49,542 nucleotides of DNA from a virus: the IMG/VR virus record IMGVR_UViG_3300043395_002712, positions 1 through 49,542 of that record; one strand, 5' to 3'. Within the stretch, counting starts at the first letter, position 1, and the number at the start of each line of letters is the position of its first letter. Below are positions 1 through 49,542 of the stretch, in pieces. The notes under the pieces were generated by a model. That model was not told where the DNA came from. It was given only the letters and a program-made list of their open reading frames with translations, and ran no database searches. A program made the position numbers and the translations under genes.

Positions 1-127
1 TTTGCCATGGGCTCCGAGACTTCCCCACCCTGCAAGCATTCATTCACGCAAAGCACAAAGCGCATTGCTTCAGTCTCTGACAGATTGCCGGCAGCGGCAA
101 TCATCCCAAGACGTATCATACTCTCAA
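1..127. repeat. Terminal direct repeat, left copy (circular closure)
   Basis: These 127 bases are identical to 49416-49542. An exact repeat of 127 bases at both contig ends is typical of a short-read assembler closing a circular molecule with a k-mer of that size. It is less likely to be a biological terminal repeat, because a gene reads uninterrupted across the joined ends. Unique length is therefore about 49,415 bp. Confidence 0.93.
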
Positions 128-1603: not shown

Positions 1604-1906
1604 ATGGCAGACGACAACCCCCAGCACAGAGGAGTCCCGGGCTGGGCCGGGCCTCTGCTCATCGGTCTCGTGGTCGCTGTCGCCGGCAGCTTCCTGGGAG
1701 CGGTCACGGGGTTCGCGACCATGACGGGACAGCAAAACGTGAAGCTCGCAGAGCTGACAGCAAAGTTCGAGAGCTGGTGCGACAGAATCAAAGAACAGAT
1801 AGGCGGTATCAAAGAAAGCATTGATAACGTCAGAGAAGAGAATAAGGAGCAGGACGCAGAGATCGACCGTCTTCGGGAGATACTGCGCCTGCCCCATAAT
1901 CGCTAG
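1604..1906 (+). CDS. Small membrane-anchored coiled-coil protein, 100 aa
   Basis: The N-terminus is short and soluble, then residues about 16-40 form one hydrophobic helix with small residues (GPLLIGLVVAVAGSFLGAV). After about residue 45 comes a charged heptad-like coiled coil (EQIGGIKESIDN, EENKEQDAEIDRLREIL). The single membrane span plus coiled coil resembles phage Rz-like or holin-associated proteins, or superinfection-exclusion proteins, but nothing identifies it firmly. It is alone on the plus strand, diverges from the operon starting at 1455, and converges on the haloperoxidase gene with a 4-base overlap of the ends. Confidence 0.65.
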   Translation: MADDNPQHRGVPGWAGPLLIGLVVAVAGSFLGAVTGFATMTGQQNVKLAELTAKFESWCDRIKEQIGGIKESIDNVREENKEQDAEIDRLREILRLPHNR

Positions 1907-3246
1907 ATCGTTACAGGCACCCCATCGAATCCGATGAAGGTCGTCTCGCCCCAGGGAGCCAGCCGCAGTCGCGCTGCCTCTTGCTTCTTGCGGCGCAGTA
2001 GACGCACGGCCGCGTCCTGACCCAGCATGAGGCCACGCACCACGTCGTAGCGATCATGTACGCCCATAGCCACACGCCCAAAGCCCTTATTCCAGGCCAG
2101 CTTGTCTAGCTCTCCGTGCGTGGTGAGAGTATTGGAATTGGCAGCGATGAGCGAAAGCCCATCGGGGCTGGCCTGTATGGGGCCACGGGTGGTCGAGAGC
2201 GACCCATCGGGCAGCTTGATGCTGACTGGGAAAGGAAGCTCGGGCCAGGGGACGTTCTTCCTGAACGCCTTAGCCACCGTGATCTCCGCGCCGGCAGTGG
2301 CCGCATGACCGCTCGGGAAGCGCGGGTGCGGCGGAGCACCCTCAGCCACCAGTACAGGCAACCTCCCGCCCCAACGCGCCAGCAGAGGCGCCCCCCGCTC
2401 CATCCAGAGGGAGTGCAGACGCTCCGGGTACTTCAGGAGCTGCTCGGGCCGTGCGCGGCGCCGCTCCGGCTGCGGCTGCCATTTGACCGCCCAGCAATCA
2501 CGGAACGCTTCATCAGATGCCTCAGCGAGCAGGCATTGAACATGCACGGGACCGCCATAATCAATAAACCCATTCTCTGCCGGCAGATCAGGAAATAGCG
2601 TGCTGCGGGCGATCTTGAGGTTGTCGAGCATCTGTAGCGCGCACAGCCCCATGAAGTACGGGGGGTCGGCATGTACGGCCGAGGCCAGCGCACGCGGCGA
2701 GTTCAGATAGACCGAGGCGCCGTAGGTCTGAAGCTCGATGGGATTCCCCGCAAGCATGGCGTCGCGGGTTTGCTCAGTGGTGGCGTATTCACCCGTGCGC
2801 AGCTTATAGCGCTGCTCAATCTTTACGCCCCCAAGCTCAATATCGAGCAGCAGGAGTTGAGAGATGTAAGGTTCAGGATTGTCTTCCTGATCCCGCTGCC
2901 GGAACAATGCCGCCGGGCGCGTGGGCCCCCCAAGATACTGCTCAAGCCCCTCCAAGGGGTTCCCATTCTCCTGTGTGTACTTGCGAATCTCCCGCCATCC
3001 AAGATCACGCACAGACAACAGATACGCGATCTCGATATGCGAGGCCGCAGTTTCGGGGGAATCATCATCGGGGCAGGTCTCGTATCCCGCCGGTGGGGCG
3101 ATAGCCACCCCAATCTGTGGCGACACGAGCTTCATACGCCCCGTGCGCAGATCCCGTAGTGCCGCTTGCCGGCGATCGGGAGGGAGGAGCAGCGCTGCGG
3201 TTAAAGCAGCGGCATCGTGAGACTTGTTGAAGGGCAGGTTTGTCAT
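1903..3246 (-). CDS. Vanadium-dependent haloperoxidase-like enzyme (PAP2 superfamily), 447 aa
   Basis: The C-terminal half carries the vanadate-pocket signature of vanadium haloperoxidases and PAP2 phosphatases. This includes a Lys-Trp pair (Lys255) followed by Arg-Pro (266-267), PSGH at 311-314, and Arg391-x5-His397-x3-Asp401 in the segment GRVAMGVHDRYD. His397 would be the vanadate ligand and His314 the acid-base histidine. The upstream segment SQLLLLDIELGG (129-140) and the overall length of about 450 residues match bacterial haloperoxidases better than short PAP2 phosphatases. In characterised members the reaction is hydrogen-peroxide-dependent oxidation of bromide, chloride or iodide to hypohalous acid. 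No signal peptide is visible, so the protein is predicted to be cytoplasmic. In a phage this would be an auxiliary metabolic gene. A virion role or acid-phosphatase activity is possible. Confidence 0.85.
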   Translation of the reverse strand: MTNLPFNKSHDAAALTAALLLPPDRRQAALRDLRTGRMKLVSPQIGVAIAPPAGYETCPDDDSPETAASHIEIAYLLSVRDLGWREIRKYTQENGNPLEGLEQYLGGPTRPAALFRQRDQEDNPEPYISQLLLLDIELGGVKIEQRYKLRTGEYATTEQTRDAMLAGNPIELQTYGASVYLNSPRALASAVHADPPYFMGLCALQMLDNLKIARSTLFPDLPAENGFIDYGGPVHVQCLLAEASDEAFRDCWAVKWQPQPERRRARPEQLLKYPERLHSLWMERGAPLLARWGGRLPVLVAEGAPPHPRFPSGHAATAGAEITVAKAFRKNVPWPELPFPVSIKLPDGSLSTTRGPIQASPDGLSLIAANSNTLTTHGELDKLAWNKGFGRVAMGVHDRYDVVRGLMLGQDAAVRLLRRKKQEAARLRLAPWGETTFIGFDGVPVTI

Positions 3247-3537: not shown

Positions 3538-3809
3538 AGAGCAGATTGTGAAATGAACTCGTCGTAGCTCAGGCCCAGGTTCCGGGTCGGCAATGGGCGA
3601 CCAGGATCCAGAGCCCGAACGGAGTCATTGTACTTGAAGCGCCTTTTTTCTCCAGGATTATTGTCGGCGTGAACGGCGGTCTGTCTCGAAGTCTTGATCC
3701 ACCACCTTTCGTTGTAGTAAAATATCTCCTCTTCACGCAGGTAGCGAAACTGTGTGCGCCTGTGAGGCGTCTTCATAACGTCTTGGTTCGCCGGTATAAT
3801 GTTAGGCAT
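3534..3809 (-). CDS. Hypothetical protein with HNH-like C-terminal remnant, 91 aa
   Basis: The N-terminal half is aromatic and charged (RYLREEEIFYYNERWW). The C-terminal stretch ending NLGLSYDEFI closely resembles the end of the HNH-like segment in the neighbouring 172-residue protein (NLALSYTRFS). I infer a decayed or divergent relative of HNH endonucleases, but no catalytic His/Asn set is visible. It overlaps the upstream gene by 8 bases and the downstream gene by ATGA. Confidence 0.55.
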   Translation of the reverse strand: MPNIIPANQDVMKTPHRRTQFRYLREEEIFYYNERWWIKTSRQTAVHADNNPGEKRRFKYNDSVRALDPGRPLPTRNLGLSYDEFISQSAL

Positions 3810-4320
3810 CGCAAGCCTCCTCCGTCAACCCCGCTTCTATTGCAAGCATTTCCTCTTCCATGCGAGTGTTCACAGCATCGATCGCCTCTTGCCTTGAGTC
3901 GTATCGCCCCACGAGCTTGCGACCATATCTGCCGTACCAGCACCCCTCGGTTCTGGAATAGCGGACGTTGATCCCCGGGACCTTCTTGGGCCGTCGCCGT
4001 TTCCCCGAATGCCGGGGGGTGGAGAACCGGGTGTAGCTCAGCGCGAGGTTGTCGGCCCTGAGGTTCTGACGGTTCTGATCGACCGGGACCACAAACTTCG
4101 GGGCGGGGTCGGCCCCATGGAGCAGCGCCCAGGCCACCGCTGCGGCGTCGTGGTAGCGGCCGGCGGCGAACACCAGGGGTCTGTTCCAGTGCGTGGTCCC
4201 TGCCGCCTCGCCGGCCCCCCTGGGCCCAAGCTGCCGGCGGTAGGTGATCGCCCCGGTGAGCGGGTCGTAGCGGAACAGCTCCCGCAGCAGAGCCACGGGA
4301 GGGAGCGGGCGGGCGGTCAT
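3802..4320 (-). CDS. HNH/AP2-type homing-endonuclease-like protein, probably catalytically degenerate, 172 aa
   Basis: The N-terminal ~100 residues follow the layout of phage HNH endonucleases: an LFRYDPLTGAITYRR opening, then AVAWALLHGADP, then VDQNRQNLRADNLALS. The usual Asp-His pair before the Asn-rich loop is Val-Asp-Gln here, so the first catalytic His is missing. A basic linker (KRRRPKK) leads to an AP2-like DNA-binding segment, GINVRYSRTEGCWYGRYGRK, then a helix (SRQEAIDAV). In the family this architecture makes site-specific DNA nicks or breaks. Here I infer DNA binding with doubtful nuclease activity. It lies in an overlapping operon, 4 bases into the upstream gene. Confidence 0.7.
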   Translation of the reverse strand: MTARPLPPVALLRELFRYDPLTGAITYRRQLGPRGAGEAAGTTHWNRPLVFAAGRYHDAAAVAWALLHGADPAPKFVVPVDQNRQNLRADNLALSYTRFSTPRHSGKRRRPKKVPGINVRYSRTEGCWYGRYGRKLVGRYDSRQEAIDAVNTRMEEEMLAIEAGLTEEACDA

Positions 4321-5463: not shown

Positions 5464-6894
5464 TTAGTAACCTTGCTCGATGAGCGCTTGCGTGCGGCAG
5501 TAGCCCCAGGGGAGCCCCAGAGCCCGCTCCACTCGCCGACATTGCCCCTCTTCGAGTCCCTCGGGGTTGGAGGCGAACGGCCAGAGGATCGCGGGGCTGT
5601 AGCCCTTTGTCTCCACGAGGTAGAGATTCTTGTTGGCTGATCTGACTCGCTTTAGCAAGCGCTCCTCGTATATCTCGTGGATTGATAGCTCTTTGAGCGC
5701 TCTTTTGTTGCCTCGTGCAACCGTGACGCGCTCGGGAGCGGGGGGTTTCTCTGTGATCTCGCCGTTATCACTGACGTGCAGATGCCCCGTGCGAAACTTG
5801 ACTTTGCCTTCTAGTGTCCAGTCAATCGGCTCATGCGGCAATGGGAGCTTCTCCCAGCAGTCGCTGTGAACGATGATGATGGCTTTCTTGTCCGGGTTGC
5901 TCTTGTCGGTTCTCAGCACGCGCCCCACAAGCTGCTTCCAGAGTCTCAGCGACTGCGTGGGGCGAATGAGCTGTAGACACGTTGCTGCCGGCAGGTCGAG
6001 ACCTTCATCGATGAGCGCAACGCTGACAATTACTTTCAGACCGCCGGCACTGAAGCGATCGAAGGCACTCTCCCTGGCGGCTTCTGGTGTCGTGCCAATG
6101 ATAACCTCAGCGCTAACACCGCGAGAGTTGTATTCTCTGGCGATCTCGTGCGCGTGCTCAATGCTAACCGTGACCGTGATCGTGGGGTGCAGATCAGGGT
6201 TGTAGTGCAGCAGATCGCGCAGGAAGTCGCCTTGAACTTCTACAATGCGCTCCTCGATAACACTCTGCTTATAGTCTCCCCCCTGCTTCGGAACGCCTTG
6301 CGTATCAACGACAGCGTCCTCTGCTGCCACCATTCGATACCAGCAGAGTGCTTTTGCATCCATCAGCTCCTTGGGCTGCGGACCATGGATGAGCTTTGTG
6401 ACCCCAAACTTGCCTAGTCCGGCACCCGTGGGAGTGATGGGAGTAGCACTGAGTAGCCCAAAGAAGGAGGGCTGAAGTTCTTTGATGATGCGTTGATACG
6501 AGGGGGCTTGTATATGATGCCCCTCATCAAGGATTAGAACTCTGCCACGAAAGCTGGGAATAGCAGTGGGACGTTTCGCTAAAGTAGGCATCATGGTGAC
6601 CATGATGCCCCGATCTTCCGTGGTACGGCTTGCTGTGTAGAAGCCCACGGGCTCCTCACAGTGTTGCCGGCAGGATGCGGCAAGCTGCTTGATGATCTCG
6701 TTGCGATGTGCAGCGAGAAGCGCCTGATAGCCGTAACTGCGGTAGTATTTAACGATGTCGGCGCCCATGACAGTTTTTCCGCTGCCGGTCGGACTTACAA
6801 GGCATGGTGCGCCTCCCTCGTTCATATGCTCGATTGTTTGATAGACGAGCTTTTGTTGATCCCCCCTGAGAATAAATGGACGGGTTTTGGTCAT
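5464..6894 (-). CDS. Superfamily 2 DNA helicase, 476 aa
   Basis: Two RecA-like domains are visible. Motif I is SPTGSGKT (residues 34-41), motif II is DEGH (123-126, a DExH box), motif III is SATP (149-152), and motif VI is QLVGRVLRT (321-329). The Q-tip segment at residues 10-20 (LRGDQQKLVY) is typical of phage UvsW/SSL2-like helicases. The expected role is ATP-dependent unwinding or branch migration during replication or recombination, in the cytoplasm. It overlaps the upstream gene by 4 bases, and its distance from the RusA resolvase gene (six genes, same strand) fits a joint role in processing branched DNA. Confidence 0.92.
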   Translation of the reverse strand: MTKTRPFILRGDQQKLVYQTIEHMNEGGAPCLVSPTGSGKTVMGADIVKYYRSYGYQALLAAHRNEIIKQLAASCRQHCEEPVGFYTASRTTEDRGIMVTMMPTLAKRPTAIPSFRGRVLILDEGHHIQAPSYQRIIKELQPSFFGLLSATPITPTGAGLGKFGVTKLIHGPQPKELMDAKALCWYRMVAAEDAVVDTQGVPKQGGDYKQSVIEERIVEVQGDFLRDLLHYNPDLHPTITVTVSIEHAHEIAREYNSRGVSAEVIIGTTPEAARESAFDRFSAGGLKVIVSVALIDEGLDLPAATCLQLIRPTQSLRLWKQLVGRVLRTDKSNPDKKAIIIVHSDCWEKLPLPHEPIDWTLEGKVKFRTGHLHVSDNGEITEKPPAPERVTVARGNKRALKELSIHEIYEERLLKRVRSANKNLYLVETKGYSPAILWPFASNPEGLEEGQCRRVERALGLPWGYCRTQALIEQGY

Positions 6895-9926: not shown

Positions 9927-9959
9927 GCCATAGTGGCGCCGCCGCCCACGAGCGCGCAC

Positions 9960-9995
9960 AAAAAAGGGGCTGAGCGATCTGACGCGCTCAGCCCC
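9960..9995 (-). terminator. Rho-independent terminator facing left
   Basis: Perfect 11-bp stem GGGGCTGAGCG / CGCTCAGCCCC (9966-9976 and 9985-9995) with an 8-base loop. On the minus strand it is followed by six T (A 9960-9965). It would stop antisense transcription coming out of the primase gene before it reaches the leftward operon. It is also transcribed as part of the primase leader. Confidence 0.75.
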
Positions 9996-10031
9996 AAGGT
10001 TCCAACCAGAGAAAACCAGAGCAACTTTACC

Positions 10032-12470
10032 ATGGAACGATGGATACCCTCCTCCCGCAACCAGCCCTGCCCGATCTGCTCGCGCAGCAAGGACGGTGAC
10101 TGCCGCATCCGGCAGGACGGACAGATGCTGTTCTGCCACAGGGGTAAGACGCTGGGCCCGCCCGAGCGCCTCAAGGCAGGCGACGTGGTGACCGACGCCG
10201 AGGGCAGGGCCTGGGCCTACACTGGGGAGTCTAGGGACGACAGCAGGGACGGGGCGGTGTTTGTCATCCACCAGGAGAGCGCCCATGGCCTGCCCGCCTG
10301 CCCTCCGCCCGAGCCGGCCCCACGGTCGAGCACAAAGCGCAATAGCGAACCCTGCACTGCGGTAACGTATCAATACCGCGATGATCTTCGGGTGATTCGC
10401 TATGACTATCAGAGCGAAAGGAGGAAGGATTTTCAGCCTCAGTTCTACTACAACAAGCGCTGGAATACTGGAGCGGGCTCCGAGATATGGCCGTTCTATG
10501 GTTCCCTGGGAGGTAATGGGGAGTCATTTGTCATAGAGGTAGAAGGTGAGAAGTGTGTTGACATACTGCGTGCTCAGGGGATTGCTGCCATCACGCACCC
10601 TGGACACCAGAGGGATGAACAAAGTTGCAGGGCCAGATACACGGGGCTTGCGCAGGCGAACGTAAAGACCGTCTACTTTATCTCCGATAACGATGCGGCC
10701 GGCAGGAAGAAGGCAGCCGGCTTTTTTCTCGCGGCACAGCTTGCAGACGTAGAGCTTCGCATCCTGCCGGCAGAATCGATTCATAGCGTTCCTGATGGCG
10801 GGAGCGTTGACGACATGCCGACGGAGCAGCTTAAGTCGCTCATTGCTTCGGCCATCAAGTCGGCCACTGGGCAAAAGCCCGCGCCTCTTAGCCGCGTCAG
10901 CTACGGGCGCATCAAGAGATCACTCGCTGACTTTCTCGATACGGCGCCGACCTCATCGGCTGATATTCAGGCAGGCATTGCCGACATTGCGAGCGCCAAC
11001 GATGCCTCGGTGTTCGATGTTAAGCGCATCTGGGATTCGATCCAGGAAGACCGCGAGATCGAACAGGAAGCGCTCAGCGGTTCTTCCGCCATCCGGCAAC
11101 GGCAGGAGCTTGAGACAAAGCGGCAGGCACTGCGTTTGCGCGACTACCTGCCGGAATCGATCTGTGATTCCGTGGAGGAGCTGACAAAGAACCTAGCCTG
11201 CGATCCCCTGACGGCAATCTCGGTCGTACTTACCACCGCTGCCGGCGTGTTCAAGGCGGGACACAGAATCGATGCCGGCGATGGGCTGTTTGTGAAGGAG
11301 CCCGTGATCTGGATGCTCATATCAGGCAGCAGCGGCACGGGCAAGAGCCCGATCATGCGGCACCTTTGCCGGCACAGGCTGGACATGGTGTTCGATCACT
11401 ATAATCACCTGTCTCTCGAAGAGGAGGAGCGGTGGGAGTCGCGCTACTCCATGATGCCAAAGGCAAAGCGTCCCGAGAAGCCAGAGCCGTTATCGACTTG
11501 CGTTTCAGACTTCACGACGGAATCGCTTAATCGCGTTCTGAGTGACAATCACCGGAATGGCCTTGGAACCTTCATCTATTCCGAGGAGATCAAGGGCATC
11601 CTCGGAAACTTTGATGAGTACAAGTCCCACGGCAAGGGCAAGGGCAAGGAAACATTCCTGTGCTTGTTTGACGGCAACGTTGACTCGCAGCTTCGCGTGG
11701 GCCGCAGGACGAAACTTGTTACCGGCAAGGTGCAAAACGCACTTCTGGGGGCAGTTCAACCCGGCGTGTTCCGCAGGATGATCGAAGAGGGCGACGATGC
11801 TGGCTTGTTTGCCCGCTGCTTGATCGTGCCACTGGTGAACAAGTACGCAGAGCCAAACTTCTTCCGCTCCCCAGAGGAGATCCAGGCAGTGCATCTTGCG
11901 GAGCAGTGCCTGAACAATTTTTATTTGCGCTGTCTGGGCGTCAACCCGATCGTGCTCAGGCTTGAGCGAGAGGCGGTTGAACTGTTCTCCACGTTATCCC
12001 GCGACACTTACGACAAGTCGCAGATGCTGTCTTTGGAGTCGCAACGCGCCGTGCTCGGCAAGCGGCTTGGATACATTTTGCAGATTGCGCTGGCGATGCA
12101 ACTGTGCCGCGTCGCTGCCGGCGAGGAAAGCGAGGATGAGCCATTCGTCTCCACGCGCACCATTGCGCAAGCCACGGTGTTTGTGGACTTGCTTCAGAGC
12201 TACGCCATCGTCGAGCAGCAGGAATCGCAGATGACGAAGCACGGATCGTTCGATCTGAACCGTCGCATCCACGTTTACGCAAGAGCGAACAAAGGTTGCA
12301 CCGTGGGGCGGTTCATGGCGGCTTGCGTGCCCACGCGGCAGCGCTCTCAGATCAAGCCTCAGAACATCAAGGCTGCTATGGAACAGATGGTGGCAATGGG
12401 CCTGGGGGAATGGGCCGAGGGCACGGAGAAGTCACCACGTTTTGTTTCGCTTGGCAAGTTCCCGGATTAA
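10032..12470 (+). CDS. Primase-helicase: zinc-finger/TOPRIM N-terminus with DUF3987-type ATPase, 812 aa
   Basis: A zinc-binding motif near the N-terminus (CPIC at about 13-16, then FCH near 35) is followed by a TOPRIM domain. The TOPRIM residues are IEVEGEKCVDIL (glutamate near 168) and FISDNDAAGRKKA (Asp-x-Asp near 217). A DUF3987-like helicase domain begins near residue 380, with Walker A SGSSGTGKSP near 432. Together these make RNA primers and unwind DNA at the fork. I choose ATG 10032 (MERWIPSSRNQPCPIC) because upstream codons are low-complexity and pass through the terminator hairpin at 9966-9995. Length is normal for such fusions. It leads the rightward replication operon; no separate DNA polymerase was found, so the host polymerase is probably used. 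Confidence 0.88.
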   Translation: MERWIPSSRNQPCPICSRSKDGDCRIRQDGQMLFCHRGKTLGPPERLKAGDVVTDAEGRAWAYTGESRDDSRDGAVFVIHQESAHGLPACPPPEPAPRSSTKRNSEPCTAVTYQYRDDLRVIRYDYQSERRKDFQPQFYYNKRWNTGAGSEIWPFYGSLGGNGESFVIEVEGEKCVDILRAQGIAAITHPGHQRDEQSCRARYTGLAQANVKTVYFISDNDAAGRKKAAGFFLAAQLADVELRILPAESIHSVPDGGSVDDMPTEQLKSLIASAIKSATGQKPAPLSRVSYGRIKRSLADFLDTAPTSSADIQAGIADIASANDASVFDVKRIWDSIQEDREIEQEALSGSSAIRQRQELETKRQALRLRDYLPESICDSVEELTKNLACDPLTAISVVLTTAAGVFKAGHRIDAGDGLFVKEPVIWMLISGSSGTGKSPIMRHLCRHRLDMVFDHYNHLSLEEEERWESRYSMMPKAKRPEKPEPLSTCVSDFTTESLNRVLSDNHRNGLGTFIYSEEIKGILGNFDEYKSHGKGKGKETFLCLFDGNVDSQLRVGRRTKLVTGKVQNALLGAVQPGVFRRMIEEGDDAGLFARCLIVPLVNKYAEPNFFRSPEEIQAVHLAEQCLNNFYLRCLGVNPIVLRLEREAVELFSTLSRDTYDKSQMLSLESQRAVLGKRLGYILQIALAMQLCRVAAGEESEDEPFVSTRTIAQATVFVDLLQSYAIVEQQESQMTKHGSFDLNRRIHVYARANKGCTVGRFMAACVPTRQRSQIKPQNIKAAMEQMVAMGLGEWAEGTEKSPRFVSLGKFPD

Positions 12471-18346: not shown

Positions 18347-19057
18347 CTACTGCTCCTGGAAGACGCCGACGTAGACCTTGCCTTTCTGGGTGAGCGGTAG
18401 CACGAGATCACGCAGGGCGTCGTTGTGCATCCTGATGCACCCGTAGGTCGGCAGAAGCGGCTGCTTGGGCGCCCAGGCCCCGGGCCAGCCATTGCCGCTC
18501 CCGCCGCCGTGCAGCATGATCCCGGCCCTGCCGTTCGTCGCCTCCTGATTCTCCAGCTCCACCAGGTCGAACGAGTACCAGCCGTAAGCCTTGAGGGTGT
18601 CGTTGCCGGCGGGATGGGAGCCGACTTCCTCGTAGTCCTTGTGGATCTGGCCGATCACGTAGAGCCCTGGCGGGGTGTCGCTGTTGCGGGTGCGCCAGTC
18701 ACGATCTGAGCCCTGGCCCCGGGCCAATGCCGGCGCTCGCCACAGCAGCTTGCCGGTGTGGTCGTAAGCCTCGCAGTCCTGATCGCGGTCGTTCACGAGC
18801 AGGTAGGAGTCCCCTGGCTTCATCGGCGCCTTCATGCCGGGCCCAGTCATGCCGGCTTCCTCCTTGCCCCTCGGGTCGAGCCCGCCGGCAGGAATGAGAG
18901 GTTGCTTGGACGGCACCGCGCTGACCCAGATCGATCCCAGCTCGCCGCCGTCCTCCAGGCTGCCGGGCGGCAGATGCTGCTCAACAGCGGCCCAGAAAGC
19001 GACGTGATGCGAGAGGTCGAAGTTTGTGTTCTCGACGCAGGAGCGAAGGGTTCTCAT
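18347..19057 (-). CDS. YkuD (L,D-transpeptidase fold) domain protein, lysis candidate, 236 aa
   Basis: Residues about 80-235 match the YkuD domain: SYLLVNDRDQDCEAYDHTGK (strand pair), DTPPGLYVIGQI (the T/D-P-x-G-x-Y element), IMLHGGG with His183, and YGCIRMHNDA with Cys207, Arg209 and Asn212, the usual catalytic C-I-R-M-x-N. A Tyr replaces the common His before Gly-Cys. The family forms or cleaves 3-3 peptidoglycan cross-links. In a phage, just downstream of two small membrane proteins, it most likely weakens the cell wall for lysis. No signal peptide is seen, so it would need a holin or other export. The N-terminal 80 residues are unique. No other endolysin gene was recognised; the M15-like motif inside the tape measure is the only other cell-wall signature. 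Confidence 0.82.
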   Translation of the reverse strand: MRTLRSCVENTNFDLSHHVAFWAAVEQHLPPGSLEDGGELGSIWVSAVPSKQPLIPAGGLDPRGKEEAGMTGPGMKAPMKPGDSYLLVNDRDQDCEAYDHTGKLLWRAPALARGQGSDRDWRTRNSDTPPGLYVIGQIHKDYEEVGSHPAGNDTLKAYGWYSFDLVELENQEATNGRAGIMLHGGGSGNGWPGAWAPKQPLLPTYGCIRMHNDALRDLVLPLTQKGKVYVGVFQEQ

Positions 19058-32600: not shown

Positions 32601-34427
32601 CTTCTCCAGCGCCGTGATGGCATCGTTTGGATCCTTGAACGATCCGGCAAGATTCTTCAGGTTCTGCGATGTGGTATCGACCACCCCGCCAAGCGCCGTG
32701 CCGATCAGGGACAGGCCGAAGCCGAAGGAGCCCCCGAGCAGACCCCCGCCCAGGCCGCCCAGGCCGCCGCCGATCGATGCAGCGGCACCCTGGCCGAACA
32801 GCAGTGGGAAGGCGCCACCCACGAGGCCCTGGCTGATGGCGTCGCGGCGGCTGCCCTGGAACAGCCGGGAGTTCTGGCGCTGGCGCTCGGCCTCCCTCTG
32901 GGCCCTGAGGGCCTCGCGCTGCTGGCGCTGCGCCTGGCGCTCCTGCTCGCGGTTGTAGGCCGGGGAGTCCACCATGAACCGCGTCCCGCCGATCGGGGAG
33001 CGGGGGCCGGCAGTGCGAGACCTGGCCAGCTCCTCTGCTGCCCGGCGCTCCTGCTCGCGTCGCTGTGCAAGCAGGTCAACGGGAGCAACGCCGCCCGGGG
33101 TGCCCGCCACGCGCTCGGCAAGCATGGCGCTGCTTGGCAGGGCGCGGCGATTGGTTCTCTGCCAATCCGCCATGTCCGCCAGTGCTCGTTGCCAGCTCTG
33201 GCGGGTGTTCAGGCCACGGGCCGCCCTGCCGGCGGCTCCGGTGGCCTGGATGTCCGCCATGTCCGCCAGTGCTCGTTGCCAGCTCTGGCGGGTGTTCAGG
33301 CCACGGGCCGCCCTGCCGGCGGCTCCGGTGGCCTGGATGTCCGCCATGTCCGCCAGTGCTCGTTGCCAGCTCTGGCGGGTGTTCAGGCCACGGGCCGCCC
33401 TGCCGGCGGCTCCGGTGGCCTGGATGTCCGCCATGCCAGCCAGTGCCTGCTGCCAGCTCTGGCGGACATTGAGATTCCTGACCCCAGCCCTTTGCCGACC
33501 GGAAAGCTCTCTCGCGGCGCTATCAAGCTCCCGCGTATATCGCGCAATGGCGGCATTCATGCGCCGCGTTAGATCCTTGGATCCGGCGGTATCCCCGCGC
33601 CTACTGGCCGCAATTACTCTTTCGGTTTGCGACCTGAGCCCCCTAATCTTTGCGTCGTCAACACCAGGACGTGCGGCCAGTTCATCGATTCGCTCCTGAG
33701 CGCGTCTTGCAGACTCGAAGGCAATAGACCGGCCAGAGCGCAACCTATTGCGCTCATTCTGCTCTCTCAGCAATCCGGCCTGCTCGGTGCCGAGCCGCTG
33801 CATAAGGGCCGGGTTCCGGGCCGCCAGAGCGAGATCAAATGCCGCCCTGGTATTGTGAGCTTGCTGTTGAAGCGCCGGGGGAAGTTCAGCGCCTCCACCT
33901 CCCCTGGCAAACTCGCGCTGACGACCCCGGAACAGATTGGTAAGGTAATTTTCGCGGCTCTCGCGTCCGATGCGACGCATAACCTCGTCAAGATTTGCCC
34001 TGCCTTCCTCTATGCCAGGGGTTGTCTCCCCGACTATGCGACTGGCCCTGGCAAGGCGAGCCGCATATCTTCTGCGTTGCTGATTAAGCCTTTGTACTTC
34101 CCTCGCTTCCTGCTGGAGTCCGATTTCGGAAATGCGGAGATTTGCCTCAGCCCTCCTGCGTGCCGGCAGGTCAGCCCCCGCGAATCTTCCTCCCTCTCCC
34201 CGAACTCTTGCGCGCCTGGCCTCGGCGAGATCCCTGCGAGCCTGTGCGACGCTGCGACCAGCCGCCTCAAGACGCTTAGAGGCAGCTGGGGCTGCCTGCG
34301 TCAGGCTTTCGGACTCTCTGTCAATAGCTCTCATAAGAGAGAGCGTGTTTTCAAGGCGTCTTTCGAGCCGCCCTATATCCTCGAACCCTCTTACGCCAAC
34401 GCGGATTAACCCTTGGTAGTCGTTCAC
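29655..34427 (-). CDS. Tape measure protein with internal repeats and an M15-like peptidase motif, 1590 aa
   Basis: The longest gene (GTG start 34427), in the expected position after the chaperones. The N-terminal 430 residues are helical and include a 29-residue unit (RQSWQRALADMADIQATG) repeated almost identically three times plus a diverged copy. Hydrophobic Gly-rich segments lie near residues 525-585. Residues about 985-1060 carry HGGSNYHEHIAFAS then GRHAPGSYHYSGQAVDIPAA. The latter has the S-x-H-x-x-G-x-A-x-D signature of M15-type zinc peptidases, preceded rather than followed by a His pair. The C-terminus has a Gly-rich stretch and DGGEPEFFFPGVTG. The protein sets tail length and probably locally opens peptidoglycan on entry. 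Confidence 0.9.
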   Translation of the reverse strand: MNDYQGLIRVGVRGFEDIGRLERRLENTLSLMRAIDRESESLTQAAPAASKRLEAAGRSVAQARRDLAEARRARVRGEGGRFAGADLPARRRAEANLRISEIGLQQEAREVQRLNQQRRRYAARLARASRIVGETTPGIEEGRANLDEVMRRIGRESRENYLTNLFRGRQREFARGGGGAELPPALQQQAHNTRAAFDLALAARNPALMQRLGTEQAGLLREQNERNRLRSGRSIAFESARRAQERIDELAARPGVDDAKIRGLRSQTERVIAASRRGDTAGSKDLTRRMNAAIARYTRELDSAARELSGRQRAGVRNLNVRQSWQQALAGMADIQATGAAGRAARGLNTRQSWQRALADMADIQATGAAGRAARGLNTRQSWQRALADMADIQATGAAGRAARGLNTRQSWQRALADMADWQRTNRRALPSSAMLAERVAGTPGGVAPVDLLAQRREQERRAAEELARSRTAGPRSPIGGTRFMVDSPAYNREQERQAQRQQREALRAQREAERQRQNSRLFQGSRRDAISQGLVGGAFPLLFGQGAAASIGGGLGGLGGGLLGGSFGFGLSLIGTALGGVVDTTSQNLKNLAGSFKDPNDAITALEKAGFEVGDTLRFQVEQLKSVGRAYDAQTLVLKEVEKRLGTGAVQELNALNAEQKKLQDSSSILAGNLQRLVIPGVIGFTVVLNDLVTLLNSVGGAGKNRMPITDAIGALFSLTPSGKKAKAAIASAPGRVPLSPQEAFAEQSTRIQESQRLADQVKSAYREAFKLQRQAYDLQRDGADINRDIADYAYKKEREIFDLRQQAAEKQIENARGAAQNRIERGDLGLRQAFSGAVGFEQQLLSNVREVMRTRKEGEADIEQSRKRLELSMVKLGRDAEDYKRANAREIDDIERRKLAYTRSVEDYKMQVADYVLQRTREAAELSRQSAALPEVGAGPGAPAAPGRTGRALPTGAAPNTLMGVPGVLEYLTGDRSSSGYRADHGGSNYHEHIAFASRKIRDDVISMLRRNGIAIGSTDGGRHAPGSYHYSGQAVDIPAAQVPMGKEDALARRVRALVAAHLGGGNIQGRAAGQVSGVPAPTFRPTPLGATPSAAPLSAARMAAGRTLAGGEREAQRILEEQIRLREKGVELGQIEQILQSNQLPQLQQQYDTLRRQVEARRQVLDLSEQGASVADIEAEIAARLAQIEKDRAGALSKARQQITNPQELSKATESINKQAGLALDIAKKEEEQRRKNLDLSNQLQNQDRARAEILQLQEALTLSRVEAAALERGELKATGLELLKASSLYQEAGQAQKDKLAALTAETEELRKQNEFRRQTNELQRDASLVGAGLRAGFIGPSARAFEQGMRDFDGDASKASELANRAALLENQRLVWDNLEKNIVDVSTAISGSLTNGLVDIVSSSKKIEDVGKEMLNNIARSFADSAAQQLNALLQRQLMGLMGGMLGGGGGAGAGVLGSFFGGPALVQGLGQSIPFGGFFANGGTTRPGKGYVVGDGGEPEFFFPGVTGRVVPKSDMEKAAELRGRGESYEPIKLHYTVKEERGERYVTEDQMRKSNAATLKRAQAMTLSGMRNNKEVRDYVGI
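33170..33475 (-). repeat. 87-bp tandem repeat in the tape measure gene
   Basis: Three nearly identical 87-bp units followed by a diverged fourth copy, each coding 29 residues. The in-frame period means copy number can change without breaking the gene. Boundaries are accurate to a few bases. Confidence 0.85.
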
Positions 34428-42019: not shown

Positions 42020-43357
42020 ATGGCAGTACAGCAGGCCGAACTACGCCAGAGCGGCGATTTCCTCGCCGGCAAAAATCGGCTGTCGCTCAGGCCCATTCAG
42101 GGGCAGATATTCACCGATCGCCGCCGCTTTCGCGTCGTTTTGGCGGGCCGGCGAGGCGGAAAAACGGTGCTGGGAGGGGTCGAGCTGCTGCGTGGTGCCA
42201 CCGAAAAAGTCGGCGTGTACTACTACATCGCTCCGACATACCGAATGGCGCGGGACATCGCGTGGGATACATACAAGCGCATCATACCCGAGTGCTGGAT
42301 ACGGAAAAAGAATGAGTCGAACCTGAGAATCGACCTGATTAACGGCAGTCAGATTTACCTCAAGGGCTCTGAAGACCCCGACGCACTACGTGGTCCCGCT
42401 CTCAACGGGGCAGTACTTGACGAATGCGCATTCCAGGAGGAGTACACCTGGCGTTCCGTGATTCGGCCGGCGTTGTCGGACCGTGGGGGCTGGGCGTTGT
42501 TCACTACTACGCCATCGCCCGAGGGCACTGCGGGATGGTTTTACGAAATGATCCTGCTGCTCAAGAATGCAGACCTCGCCGATCCCGGTCTTGAGCGCCT
42601 TGATCCGCAGCAATGGACGTTATACGAGTACACGTCCCTGCAAGGGGGCAATATTCCCGTACACGAGATCGAAGAGGCGCGCCGCACACTCGCCCCCGAA
42701 GTCTTTGAGCGCGAATACGAGGCCAAGATCCTCTCAAATACAGGTCTTGTGGCATCGTGCTTCTCGATGCTCAACGTTGATTCGACTGTCACCGACGATG
42801 AAAGCCTGCCTCTCTATGTCGGAATTGACTTCAACAACGACCCCCTAACCGCAATCTGCGCAAATATCATCAAAGAGAACGGCAAAATCAAAGAATTGCG
42901 CGTTTTTACCGAGTTGAACCTAAAAAGCGCCACGACATGGGATCTGGCGGAAGTTCTACTCGAAAACTTCGGTGAAACCCGCAGAATCGTCGCCTGCCCG
43001 GACCCGACCGGCAAGAGGAAGCAGACCTCGGGTGTCGGCGTGAGCGATCACCAGATCCTGCGCAGGGCCGGCATCAGCGTGTTCGCGCCCGAGGCCCCCT
43101 ACAACACCGCTGACGGCATCCGCGCCGTCAACGCAGCACTGAGGACCGCCGATGGGGAGGTCCACACCCGAATCCACCCGAGCTGCCGGGAGCTGATCAA
43201 GTCCTTCCGCACTCTGGGTTACGCCGAGGGTACGCGGATGCCAAACAAAAAGCTCGGCGTTGATCACTCCTTCGATGCGTTCAAGTACCTCGTGCTTGGT
43301 AAGTTCAACCTCACACGAGGGGAAAGCGGCAGAATCACGACGCATCGTATCTACTGA
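42020..43357 (+). CDS. terL: Terminase large subunit, 445 aa
   Basis: ATPase domain: Walker A LAGRRGGKT (41-49), Walker B AVLDE (131-135), coupling motif FTTTPS (161-166). Nuclease domain: LYVGIDFNNDP with Asp270, and a later VDHSFDAFKYLV with Asp415 and Asp419. The protein translocates and cuts DNA at the portal. The length is normal. Unlike most siphoviruses it is not co-directional with portal but diverges from it, and no small terminase precedes it. Its 3' end faces a convergent zinc-ribbon gene four bases away. Confidence 0.92.
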   Translation: MAVQQAELRQSGDFLAGKNRLSLRPIQGQIFTDRRRFRVVLAGRRGGKTVLGGVELLRGATEKVGVYYYIAPTYRMARDIAWDTYKRIIPECWIRKKNESNLRIDLINGSQIYLKGSEDPDALRGPALNGAVLDECAFQEEYTWRSVIRPALSDRGGWALFTTTPSPEGTAGWFYEMILLLKNADLADPGLERLDPQQWTLYEYTSLQGGNIPVHEIEEARRTLAPEVFEREYEAKILSNTGLVASCFSMLNVDSTVTDDESLPLYVGIDFNNDPLTAICANIIKENGKIKELRVFTELNLKSATTWDLAEVLLENFGETRRIVACPDPTGKRKQTSGVGVSDHQILRRAGISVFAPEAPYNTADGIRAVNAALRTADGEVHTRIHPSCRELIKSFRTLGYAEGTRMPNKKLGVDHSFDAFKYLVLGKFNLTRGESGRITTHRIY

Positions 43358-47665: not shown

Positions 47666-48196
47666 TCAGTCCCGGGGGAAGTCGTACCTGATCCGCGGCC
47701 GGCACTTAAGATCGCTGATTAGCCTGTAGGGCTCCTCGCAATCCCTCGCCAGTTGTGCAAGTTTTTCAATCGCTCCCACAACCTCCTCAATGGTAGGAAT
47801 GGGCTCAGGATCACGAACCTTGCAAAGCTCCGTGATGTATCCGTCCCTTACATTCGCCAGCACCACAAACGTCTCAACGCTGCCACGACTGCGCCCAGCG
47901 TCTCCAGACAGCTGAAAATCCCCCGAAAGATGTACCGTTACCCGATTATTTGGATTCATCCCACTACCAAGGTAGCAGCGAAAGCAAGGCCCAGCGTGCA
48001 ACGCTGAATCGTATTTCTTCCATTCCTTGCTAAAGCTGCCATCTGCCAAAATAATCTTCTTGTTCTCGTTGAAGAAAACTTCCAGGATGGGAGCATAAAA
48101 GTCGATTGCTTCTTGCCGCAGCTGATTAAGCTCAGCCCGGCAAGCAAGCTCAGCCTTAAGATCCTGGATTTGTGCAGCGGAAATAGTGAGAGTCAT
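47666..48196 (-). CDS. Hypothetical protein, 176 aa
   Basis: The N-terminal helix (LKAELACRAELNQLRQEAID) is followed by VFFNENKKIILADGSFSKEW and a beta-rich middle (NRVTVHLSGDFQLSGDAGRS), then IPTIEEVVGAIEKLAQLARD. No family was recognised. The codons for SALHAGPCFRC contain 22 bases identical to the terminator/promoter repeat found at 48675 and 49037, which is unusual for coding DNA. Confidence 0.62.
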   Translation of the reverse strand: MTLTISAAQIQDLKAELACRAELNQLRQEAIDFYAPILEVFFNENKKIILADGSFSKEWKKYDSALHAGPCFRCYLGSGMNPNNRVTVHLSGDFQLSGDAGRSRGSVETFVVLANVRDGYITELCKVRDPEPIPTIEEVVGAIEKLAQLARDCEEPYRLISDLKCRPRIRYDFPRD

Positions 48197-48660: not shown

Positions 48661-48711
48661 ACTATACAGACAAAAGGCCCAGCGTGCAACGCTGAGCCGA
48701 GGAACGCTTAA
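48661..48711 (-). promoter_or_regulatory. Promoter with upstream TTAAGC box, overlapping a terminator (39-bp class)
   Basis: Minus-strand -35 TTGCAC (48684-48689), 17 bp, -10 TATAGT (48661-48666). Box ACAAACTGTTAAGC ends 39 bp upstream of the -10 (TTAAGC at 48706-48711). The -35 lies in the right half of the terminator hairpin at 48672-48698. Confidence 0.75.
48672..48698 (-). terminator. Rho-independent terminator fused with the next promoter
   Basis: Minus-strand stem GGCTCAGCGT / ACGCTGGGCC (48676-48685 and 48689-48698) with loop TGC, followed by four T. It ends the message of the 87-residue gene while its right arm holds the -35 for the next gene. Confidence 0.75.
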
Positions 48712-48719
48712 CAGTTTGT
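48673..48719 (-). repeat. 47-bp repeat, copy A
   Basis: 47 bp identical to 49035-49081. It includes the terminator stem, the -35 hexamer and the TTAAGC box. A partial copy of 22 bp lies at 47986-48007 inside a gene. Confidence 0.92.
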
Positions 48720-49021: not shown

Positions 49022-49073
49022 ATACTACCAAGAGAAAGGCCCAGCGTGCAACGCTGAGCCGAGGAACGCTTAA
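49022..49073 (-). promoter_or_regulatory. Promoter with upstream TTAAGC box, overlapping a terminator (40-bp spacing)
   Basis: Minus-strand -35 TTGCAC (49046-49051), 18 bp, -10 TAGTAT (49022-49027). Box ACAAACTGTTAAGC with TTAAGC at 49068-49073. One base longer than its sister site at 48.7 kb, both in the spacer and in the box distance. Confidence 0.7.
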
Positions 49074-49081
49074 CAGTTTGT
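49035..49081 (-). repeat. 47-bp repeat, copy B, containing a terminator
   Basis: Identical to 48673-48719. The hairpin (49038-49060) followed by TTT on the minus strand would end the seven-gene operon that starts at 1455 and crosses the junction. Confidence 0.9.
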
Positions 49082-49331: not shown

Positions 49332-49542
49332 GGCTGAGCCTTCCCCGCTTCCGCCAGAATGTCCCCCGCTGCCTTGATGCTTGCGAATGCAAGTAATTGC
49401 ATTTTGAAGTGCATCTTTGCCATGGGCTCCGAGACTTCCCCACCCTGCAAGCATTCATTCACGCAAAGCACAAAGCGCATTGCTTCAGTCTCTGACAGAT
49501 TGCCGGCAGCGGCAATCATCCCAAGACGTATCATACTCTCAA
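49328..49542 (-). CDS. Hypothetical protein, C-terminal part of the gene split by the window ends
   Basis: This is the same gene as 1-191. In the window alone it looks like a 68-residue protein starting at Met 49534, but joining the ends adds 24 residues with a coupled start. The sequence is helical (FVLCVNECLQGG, AFASIKAAGDILAEAGK). Unknown function. Confidence 0.7.
   Translation of the reverse strand, partial: ESMIRLGMIAAAGNLSETEAMRFVLCVNECLQGGEVSEPMAKMHFKMQLLAFASIKAAGDILAEAGKAQP
49416..49542. repeat. Terminal direct repeat, right copy
   Basis: Exact copy of bases 1-127. Joining the two copies restores an open reading frame on the minus strand (start at 191, stop at 49328), which supports a circular or circularly permuted genome. 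Confidence 0.93.

Follow-up and report, generated by a model that had tools for sequence, protein, structure and literature searches.

A phage genome that is complete, and probably that of a virus of freshwater cyanobacteria, encodes a vanadium haloperoxidase (VHPO) of the algal/cyanobacterial bromoperoxidase type. The gene, here called P0001, lies in the window, the whole 49,542-nucleotide stretch of DNA that was analyzed (IMG/VR record IMGVR_UViG_3300043395_002712), and is apparently intact. We consider it likely that P0001 is an active, signal-less enzyme of the algal, cyanobacterial, and bacterial branch of bromoperoxidase-type VHPOs and forms part of the accessory cargo of a cyanosiphovirus-like phage. 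The enzyme family itself is already known; its carriage by phages was not found in PHROGs, INPHARED, the phage proteins of BFVD, or the literature searched.

An earlier sequence-only reading had proposed a haloperoxidase, noting a length of about 450 residues. The open reading frame encodes 447, on the minus strand, which that reading had not given. The motifs that it listed (PSGH at residues 311 to 314, Arg391-x5-His397-x3-Asp401, Lys255 with Arg266-Pro267, and SQLLLLDI) were all found as described, and both the sequence and the model fold support the identity that it proposed. The best solved relative of P0001 by phmmer is the Ascophyllum nodosum bromoperoxidase (1qi9, E value of 2.4e-19), matched in two stretches, residues 107 to 270 and 296 to 420, that span both halves of the protein. 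The proposed HMM comparison with PAP2 gave a Pfam match at an E value of 4.7e-5, under the curated cut-off, and Pfam recognizes in P0001 the generic PAP2 superfamily domain alone. P0001 matched no PHROGs family and no INPHARED phage, the NCBIfam search gave a chance match at most, and nothing was matched by megablast against phages. Single-sequence scans with P0001 alone as the query did not find its relatives, and a retrieval profile (A1) of P0001 and three PDB segments was needed to reach them. This profile yielded 80 bacterial loci (L002 to L081) and 15 IMG/VR loci (L082 to L096), which make 96 sequences with P0001. Two of the bacterial loci (L012 and L036) come from a record whose title names a Klebsiella pneumoniae MAG; the metagenome bin is probably mislabeled.

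K255, R266, H307, G313, H314, R391, H397, and D401 are invariant over the 96 sequences, as are S129 and Q130, a pair that is absent from the VHPOs of two sister phages described below. Of 41 columns with at least 98% invariance across the 95 homologues, P0001 retains 40, all vanadate ligands among them. Alignment to 1qi9 and these homologues places the vanadium bromoperoxidase (VBPO)-type vanadate ligands at K255, R266, S312-G313-H314, R391, and H397; by the same alignment with the A. nodosum enzyme, His397 is the axial ligand, and His307 and Trp252 correspond to the second histidine and to the tryptophan before the lysine. To judge from the alignment, the retention of these columns at ∼30% identity reflects selection that maintains a VHPO active site. 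The A. nodosum protein is the best match in both sequence and fold, but it is brown algal, 556 aa long, and ∼24% identical; P0001 is ∼110 aa shorter and has three extra residues in the Lys-Arg loop. The VHPOs of the cyanobacterium Acaryochloris marina and of other bacteria belong to the same VBPO-type family at ∼30 to 37% identity.

An AlphaFold2 model of P0001 built with 60 sequences (pLDDT 85.4, pTM 0.89) has the VBPO helix-bundle fold. Foldseek against the PDB gave 12 matches with an E value of <0.001, all of them VBPOs from A. nodosum, Corallina, and Acaryochloris marina (1e-16 to 1e-19, TM of 0.67 to 0.78), with A. nodosum VBPO the best (8e-19; TM of 0.77 to 1qi9). Bacterial chloroperoxidases and the iodoperoxidase all scored above 0.01, and PAP2 acid phosphatases scored 0.1 or higher. 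The identification had been staked on the structural family, and the best fold match was to VBPOs rather than to an unrelated one. Together, the VBPO fold match and the ligand alignment suggest that the named residues would share one pocket. The VHPO of a sister phage, modeled separately, again matched VBPO (E value of 1e-17).

Table 1 Features of the window, with VHPO genes of other uncultured phages in the last row
Feature	Position	Strand	Basis
VHPO gene (P0001), 447 aa	1903..3246	-	phmmer to 1qi9; AF2 model with Foldseek
Lys255...Arg266-Pro267 vanadate-binding loop, 3-residue insertion, Trp252 just ahead	2446..2484	-	Alignment
His307 (second, bromoperoxidase-type histidine) to PSGH 311-314	2305..2328	-	H307, G313, and H314 invariant in 96 sequences
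Arg391-x5-His397-x3-Asp401	2044..2076	-	phmmer; 96-sequence alignment
S-Q-L-L-L-L-D-I segment (from S129)	2839..2862	-	Alignment
Direct terminal repeat, left copy	1..127	.	Identical to 49416-49542
Direct terminal repeat, right copy	49416..49542	.	Identical to 1-127
100-aa convergent neighbor, Rz-like/holin-like	1604..1906	+	One N-terminal TM and coiled coil
HNH endonuclease, other flank of VHPO	3802..4320	-	PHROG 99, E 9e-15; syntenic in relatives
DNA helicase, upstream of VHPO on same strand, site anchor	5464..6894	-	PHROG 16, E 4e-63
Large terminase, second anchor of VHPO site, across circular junction	42020..43357	+	Similarity and PHROG; relatives
VHPO genes in structural/tail-fiber cassettes	L084 9779-11311, L089 9773-11305, L091 9383-10981, L096 9383-10981

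The main biochemical rival to the haloperoxidase reading is use of P0001 as a phosphatase, with the site holding phosphate in the phosphate-rich cytosol and hydrolyzing esters, leading to phosphate salvage or a change in the nucleotide pool. VHPOs and PAP2 acid phosphatases have their oxyanion site and ancestry in common (PMC4859513), a phosphate intermediate has been trapped in apo-chloroperoxidase (PDB 3bb0), and the only Pfam match of P0001 is to the superfamily that they share. The bacterial acid phosphatases PhoN and E. blattae AP have the oxyanion-site motifs RP, SGH, and R-H-D in common with P0001, but they are half its size, and their fold match is not significant. At 447 aa with a VBPO fold, P0001 does not have the compact ∼220-aa PAP2 fold of these enzymes; it has kept His307, Trp252, and nearly every VHPO-invariant position, and the PDB phosphatases fall far behind the VBPOs in the Foldseek comparison. 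Phosphate and vanadate occupy the same site, which leaves phosphatase use some probability, and we regard it as unlikely.

The two ends of the window carry the same 127 bp as an exact direct repeat, so it is a complete phage genome of ∼49.4 kb. PHROGs identified a portal, major head protein, terminase, head-tail adaptor, tail protein, helicase, primase/helicase, RusA, Erf-like annealing protein, exonuclease, and HNH endonuclease. For the terminase, major capsid protein (MCP), and portal, the top or nearly top named matches come from the cyanophages S-2L, S-H1, and KBS-S-2A (∼29 to 37% identity), which makes a cyanobacterial host likely. Integrated relatives were sought in 386 cyanobacterial genomes, and since this search gave one distant terminase (35%), the host assignment rests on head-gene similarity. 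Scans of the window found terminators in numbers as in shuffled sequences and a weak excess of promoter-like sites.

Related phages were gathered by MCP and terminase searches, and nine were examined. Two of them, G016 and G017, carry a VHPO between the terminase and the HNH/helicase genes, which is the site of P0001 once the window is read as a circle; the helicase is 67 to 71% identical in the relatives. The other seven, of 43 to 49 kb, lack the gene. Terminal repeats of 123 to 127 bp (G004, G010, and G038) or 39 bp (G034) are present in four of these genomes; the absence is less certain in G003, G006, and G025, which have no terminal repeat and may be incomplete. Between G016 and G017, the VHPO is under purifying selection (dN of 0.025, dS of 0.147, dN/dS of 0.17). 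The presence of an intact, selected VHPO in two relatives and its lack in seven argue that the gene is selected accessory cargo. Phage carriage and auxiliary status, both claimed from the sequence, thus held up in a complete genome and its relatives.

P0001 and its 100-aa neighbor lie end to end on opposite strands, with a 4-bp overlap at the VHPO stop codon. In G016 and G017, a protein with this same architecture occupies the equivalent place and orientation; it is also the neighbor's best match there, a weak one (E value of 0.06), and no clear counterpart was found in the VHPO-less relatives. The neighbor matched an Rz-like spanin in PHROGs weakly (E value of 0.004), and a tie between the VHPO and lysis through this gene is a lead only.

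VHPOs are also encoded elsewhere in IMG/VR. Beyond the window group, the IMG/VR sequences branch apart from the bacterial ones, ten together (100/96) and four GC-rich ones elsewhere in the tree. In at least five further contigs, VHPO genes of a separate clade accompany phage genes identified by PHROGs; the confirmed genes near the VHPO are a portal in L084, a portal and major head protein in L091, virion structural genes in L082 and L089, and a DNA polymerase in L086. The VHPO lies within a head/tail-fiber cassette in L084, L089, L090, L091, and L096: between head genes and later virion genes in L084, directly before a tail-fiber-like protein in L089, and between the MCP and large tail proteins in L091 and L096. 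Such positions suggest possible virion enzymes. By extension, P0001 could be structural or associated with the tail, arrive with the particle, and act on the host surface or mucilage during adsorption. In the window and both sisters, however, the gene sits in the accessory region by HNH/helicase, at least some 15 kb away from the tail genes, so the argument applies to the cassette-bearing phages and not to the window phage. For the former, a virion role is plausible; for the window phage it is less so, and we think it quite improbable there. The viral nature of the GC-rich contigs L092 to L095 (95 to 619 kb, GC of 0.58 to 0.64) is doubtful because of bacterial-looking genes; their VHPOs lie beside T6SS-, kinase-, and lysozyme-like genes.

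No PHROGs family was matched by any phage VHPO tested, and those of L084 and L091, the two queried, had no match in INPHARED. In BFVD, no phage protein matched the P0001 model, and the strong matches were giant-virus proteins alone, from Hokovirus HKV1, Sylvanvirus, and Yasminevirus (5e-20 to 1e-21). These proteins (A0A1V0SGK0, A0A3G5AI90, and A0A5K0U6L7) are virus encoded and have the fold of the P0001 model, but they come from viruses of eukaryotes and are annotated as PAP2 or uncharacterized rather than as haloperoxidases; since they show the VBPO fold, they are likely unrecognized haloperoxidases. We found no report of a phage, cyanophage, virome, or giant-virus haloperoxidase in the literature searched, whose coverage mostly left out subscription papers and preprints. 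VirX1 of cyanophage Syn10 is a flavin-dependent halogenase that prefers iodide (PMC8407142), a cyanophage enzyme that likewise forms carbon-halogen bonds but does not depend on vanadate.

The window and sister VHPOs are only 28% identical, compared to 73% for the MCP and 86% for the terminase. P0001 sits on a very long branch (2.6 to 4.8 changes per column), and it groups with the two sister-phage VHPOs at 95/84, outside the bacterial sequences; the grouping is provisional because long branches meet. P0001 and the sister forms also share a short N terminus, starting at F-x-K-x-H and lacking the 40 to 100 leading residues of other VHPOs. Together, the grouping and the short N terminus favor a single origin, and one old acquisition followed by fast divergence is the simplest reading. 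Two independent acquisitions at one site are disfavored on the same grounds, which do not prove a single origin. Derivation from cyanobacterial homologues was not supported: only 20 of 386 cyanobacterial genomes contain a homologue, every one of them of at least 3.2 Mb, and P0001 does not nest among homologues of the host lineage, itself assigned by inference, as a host-derived auxiliary gene would. Tat-like leaders occur in 31 of 80 bacterial VHPOs but in none of the 16 phage-set sequences.

Lys255 and Arg266 are 11 residues apart in P0001 versus 8 in all 95 other sequences, a three-residue insertion between two vanadate ligands; the spacing of 8, from which P0001 departs and which the sister-phage VHPOs have, is a regularity of this sequence set and not a published definition. 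The inserted residues are modeled in a loop that follows the helix terminating at Lys255 (pLDDT of 75 to 84). The insertion could disturb vanadate binding, and a branch as long as that of P0001 can also reflect a changed function. If P0001 were a VHPO that had decayed or been repurposed and lost its haloperoxidase activity, this would account for the branch length, the unique insertion, and the shortened N terminus, but all ligands are intact in both P0001 and the highly divergent sister protein, and the gene is under purifying selection between the sisters; we hold such loss of activity to be very improbable. Misassembly of a bacterial fragment into a viral contig can be practically dismissed: the VHPO lies 1.9 kb from one contig end, but the terminal repeat makes that end arbitrary, HNH, helicase, and terminase genes also neighbor the VHPO in two other phage contigs, and its GC3 (0.71) is phage-like (0.73 to 0.74 in the structural genes). 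Contamination or a chimera was rejected on the terminal repeat and synteny.

From site and fold, P0001 is likely to act as a haloperoxidase; its activity, its halide, and the timing and role of its action are what we infer in the following. Fresh water is poor in vanadate and bromide, which counts against such activity. VHPOs oxidize halide with H2O2 at a His-bound vanadate (PMC8407142, PMC4859513, PMC8407465), and those of algae, fungi, and bacteria function in antifouling, in halogenation, and in the destruction of signals (PMC8407465, PMC3917277). In P0001, His397 would bind vanadate, with Lys255, Arg266, Ser312, Gly313, His314, and Arg391 keeping it in place, and cytosolic phosphate would compete for this site. 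Uptake of H2O2 would give a peroxovanadate able to oxidize halide, Br- or I- most easily, to hypohalous acid or a bound halonium. The enzyme would accumulate in the cytosol during infection, from a minus-strand unit downstream of the helicase, and might use photosynthetic H2O2 and halide in the dying cell or once released at lysis. Small molecules such as signals, or surfaces, could then be oxidized or halogenated around the burst. Intracellular or lysis-released oxidation or halogenation of this kind is the most likely role, with about one chance in three on its own. Peroxide removal, release of hypohalous acid, and surface modification, which the earlier reading had offered, would be candidate roles. 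A broader conjecture, to which we give somewhat less than even weight, is that phages own repeatedly used VHPO lineages, in freshwater cyanophages and, as structural-cassette copies, in other phages, that make hypohalous oxidants in infection or from the virion as a previously undescribed chemical weapon or signal-modifying tool. If such lineages are real, vanadium and halogen chemistry enters phage-host interaction, viruses possibly share in natural halogenation, and small, leaderless VHPOs become available for enzymology.

Other features of the window were recorded. An L,D-transpeptidase (YkuD) domain (Pfam PF03734, E value of 6e-8, TYGCIRMH motif) is encoded at 18347-19057 on the minus strand; the gene is common to the window, G017, and G010, and none was seen in G003 or G004. 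Three tandem units with 87-bp spacing lie at 33166-33465, within a long tape-measure-like gene. A 47-bp repeat has identical copies at 48673-48719 and 49035-49081 and weaker, diverged ones at 1495-1541 and 47985-48031, each of them within the accessory region that surrounds the junction, and could be a regulatory element. A DUF3987 primase/helicase-like protein (9933-12470, plus strand) is 66 to 73% conserved across the phage group and has one weak match among 50,697 named phage records.
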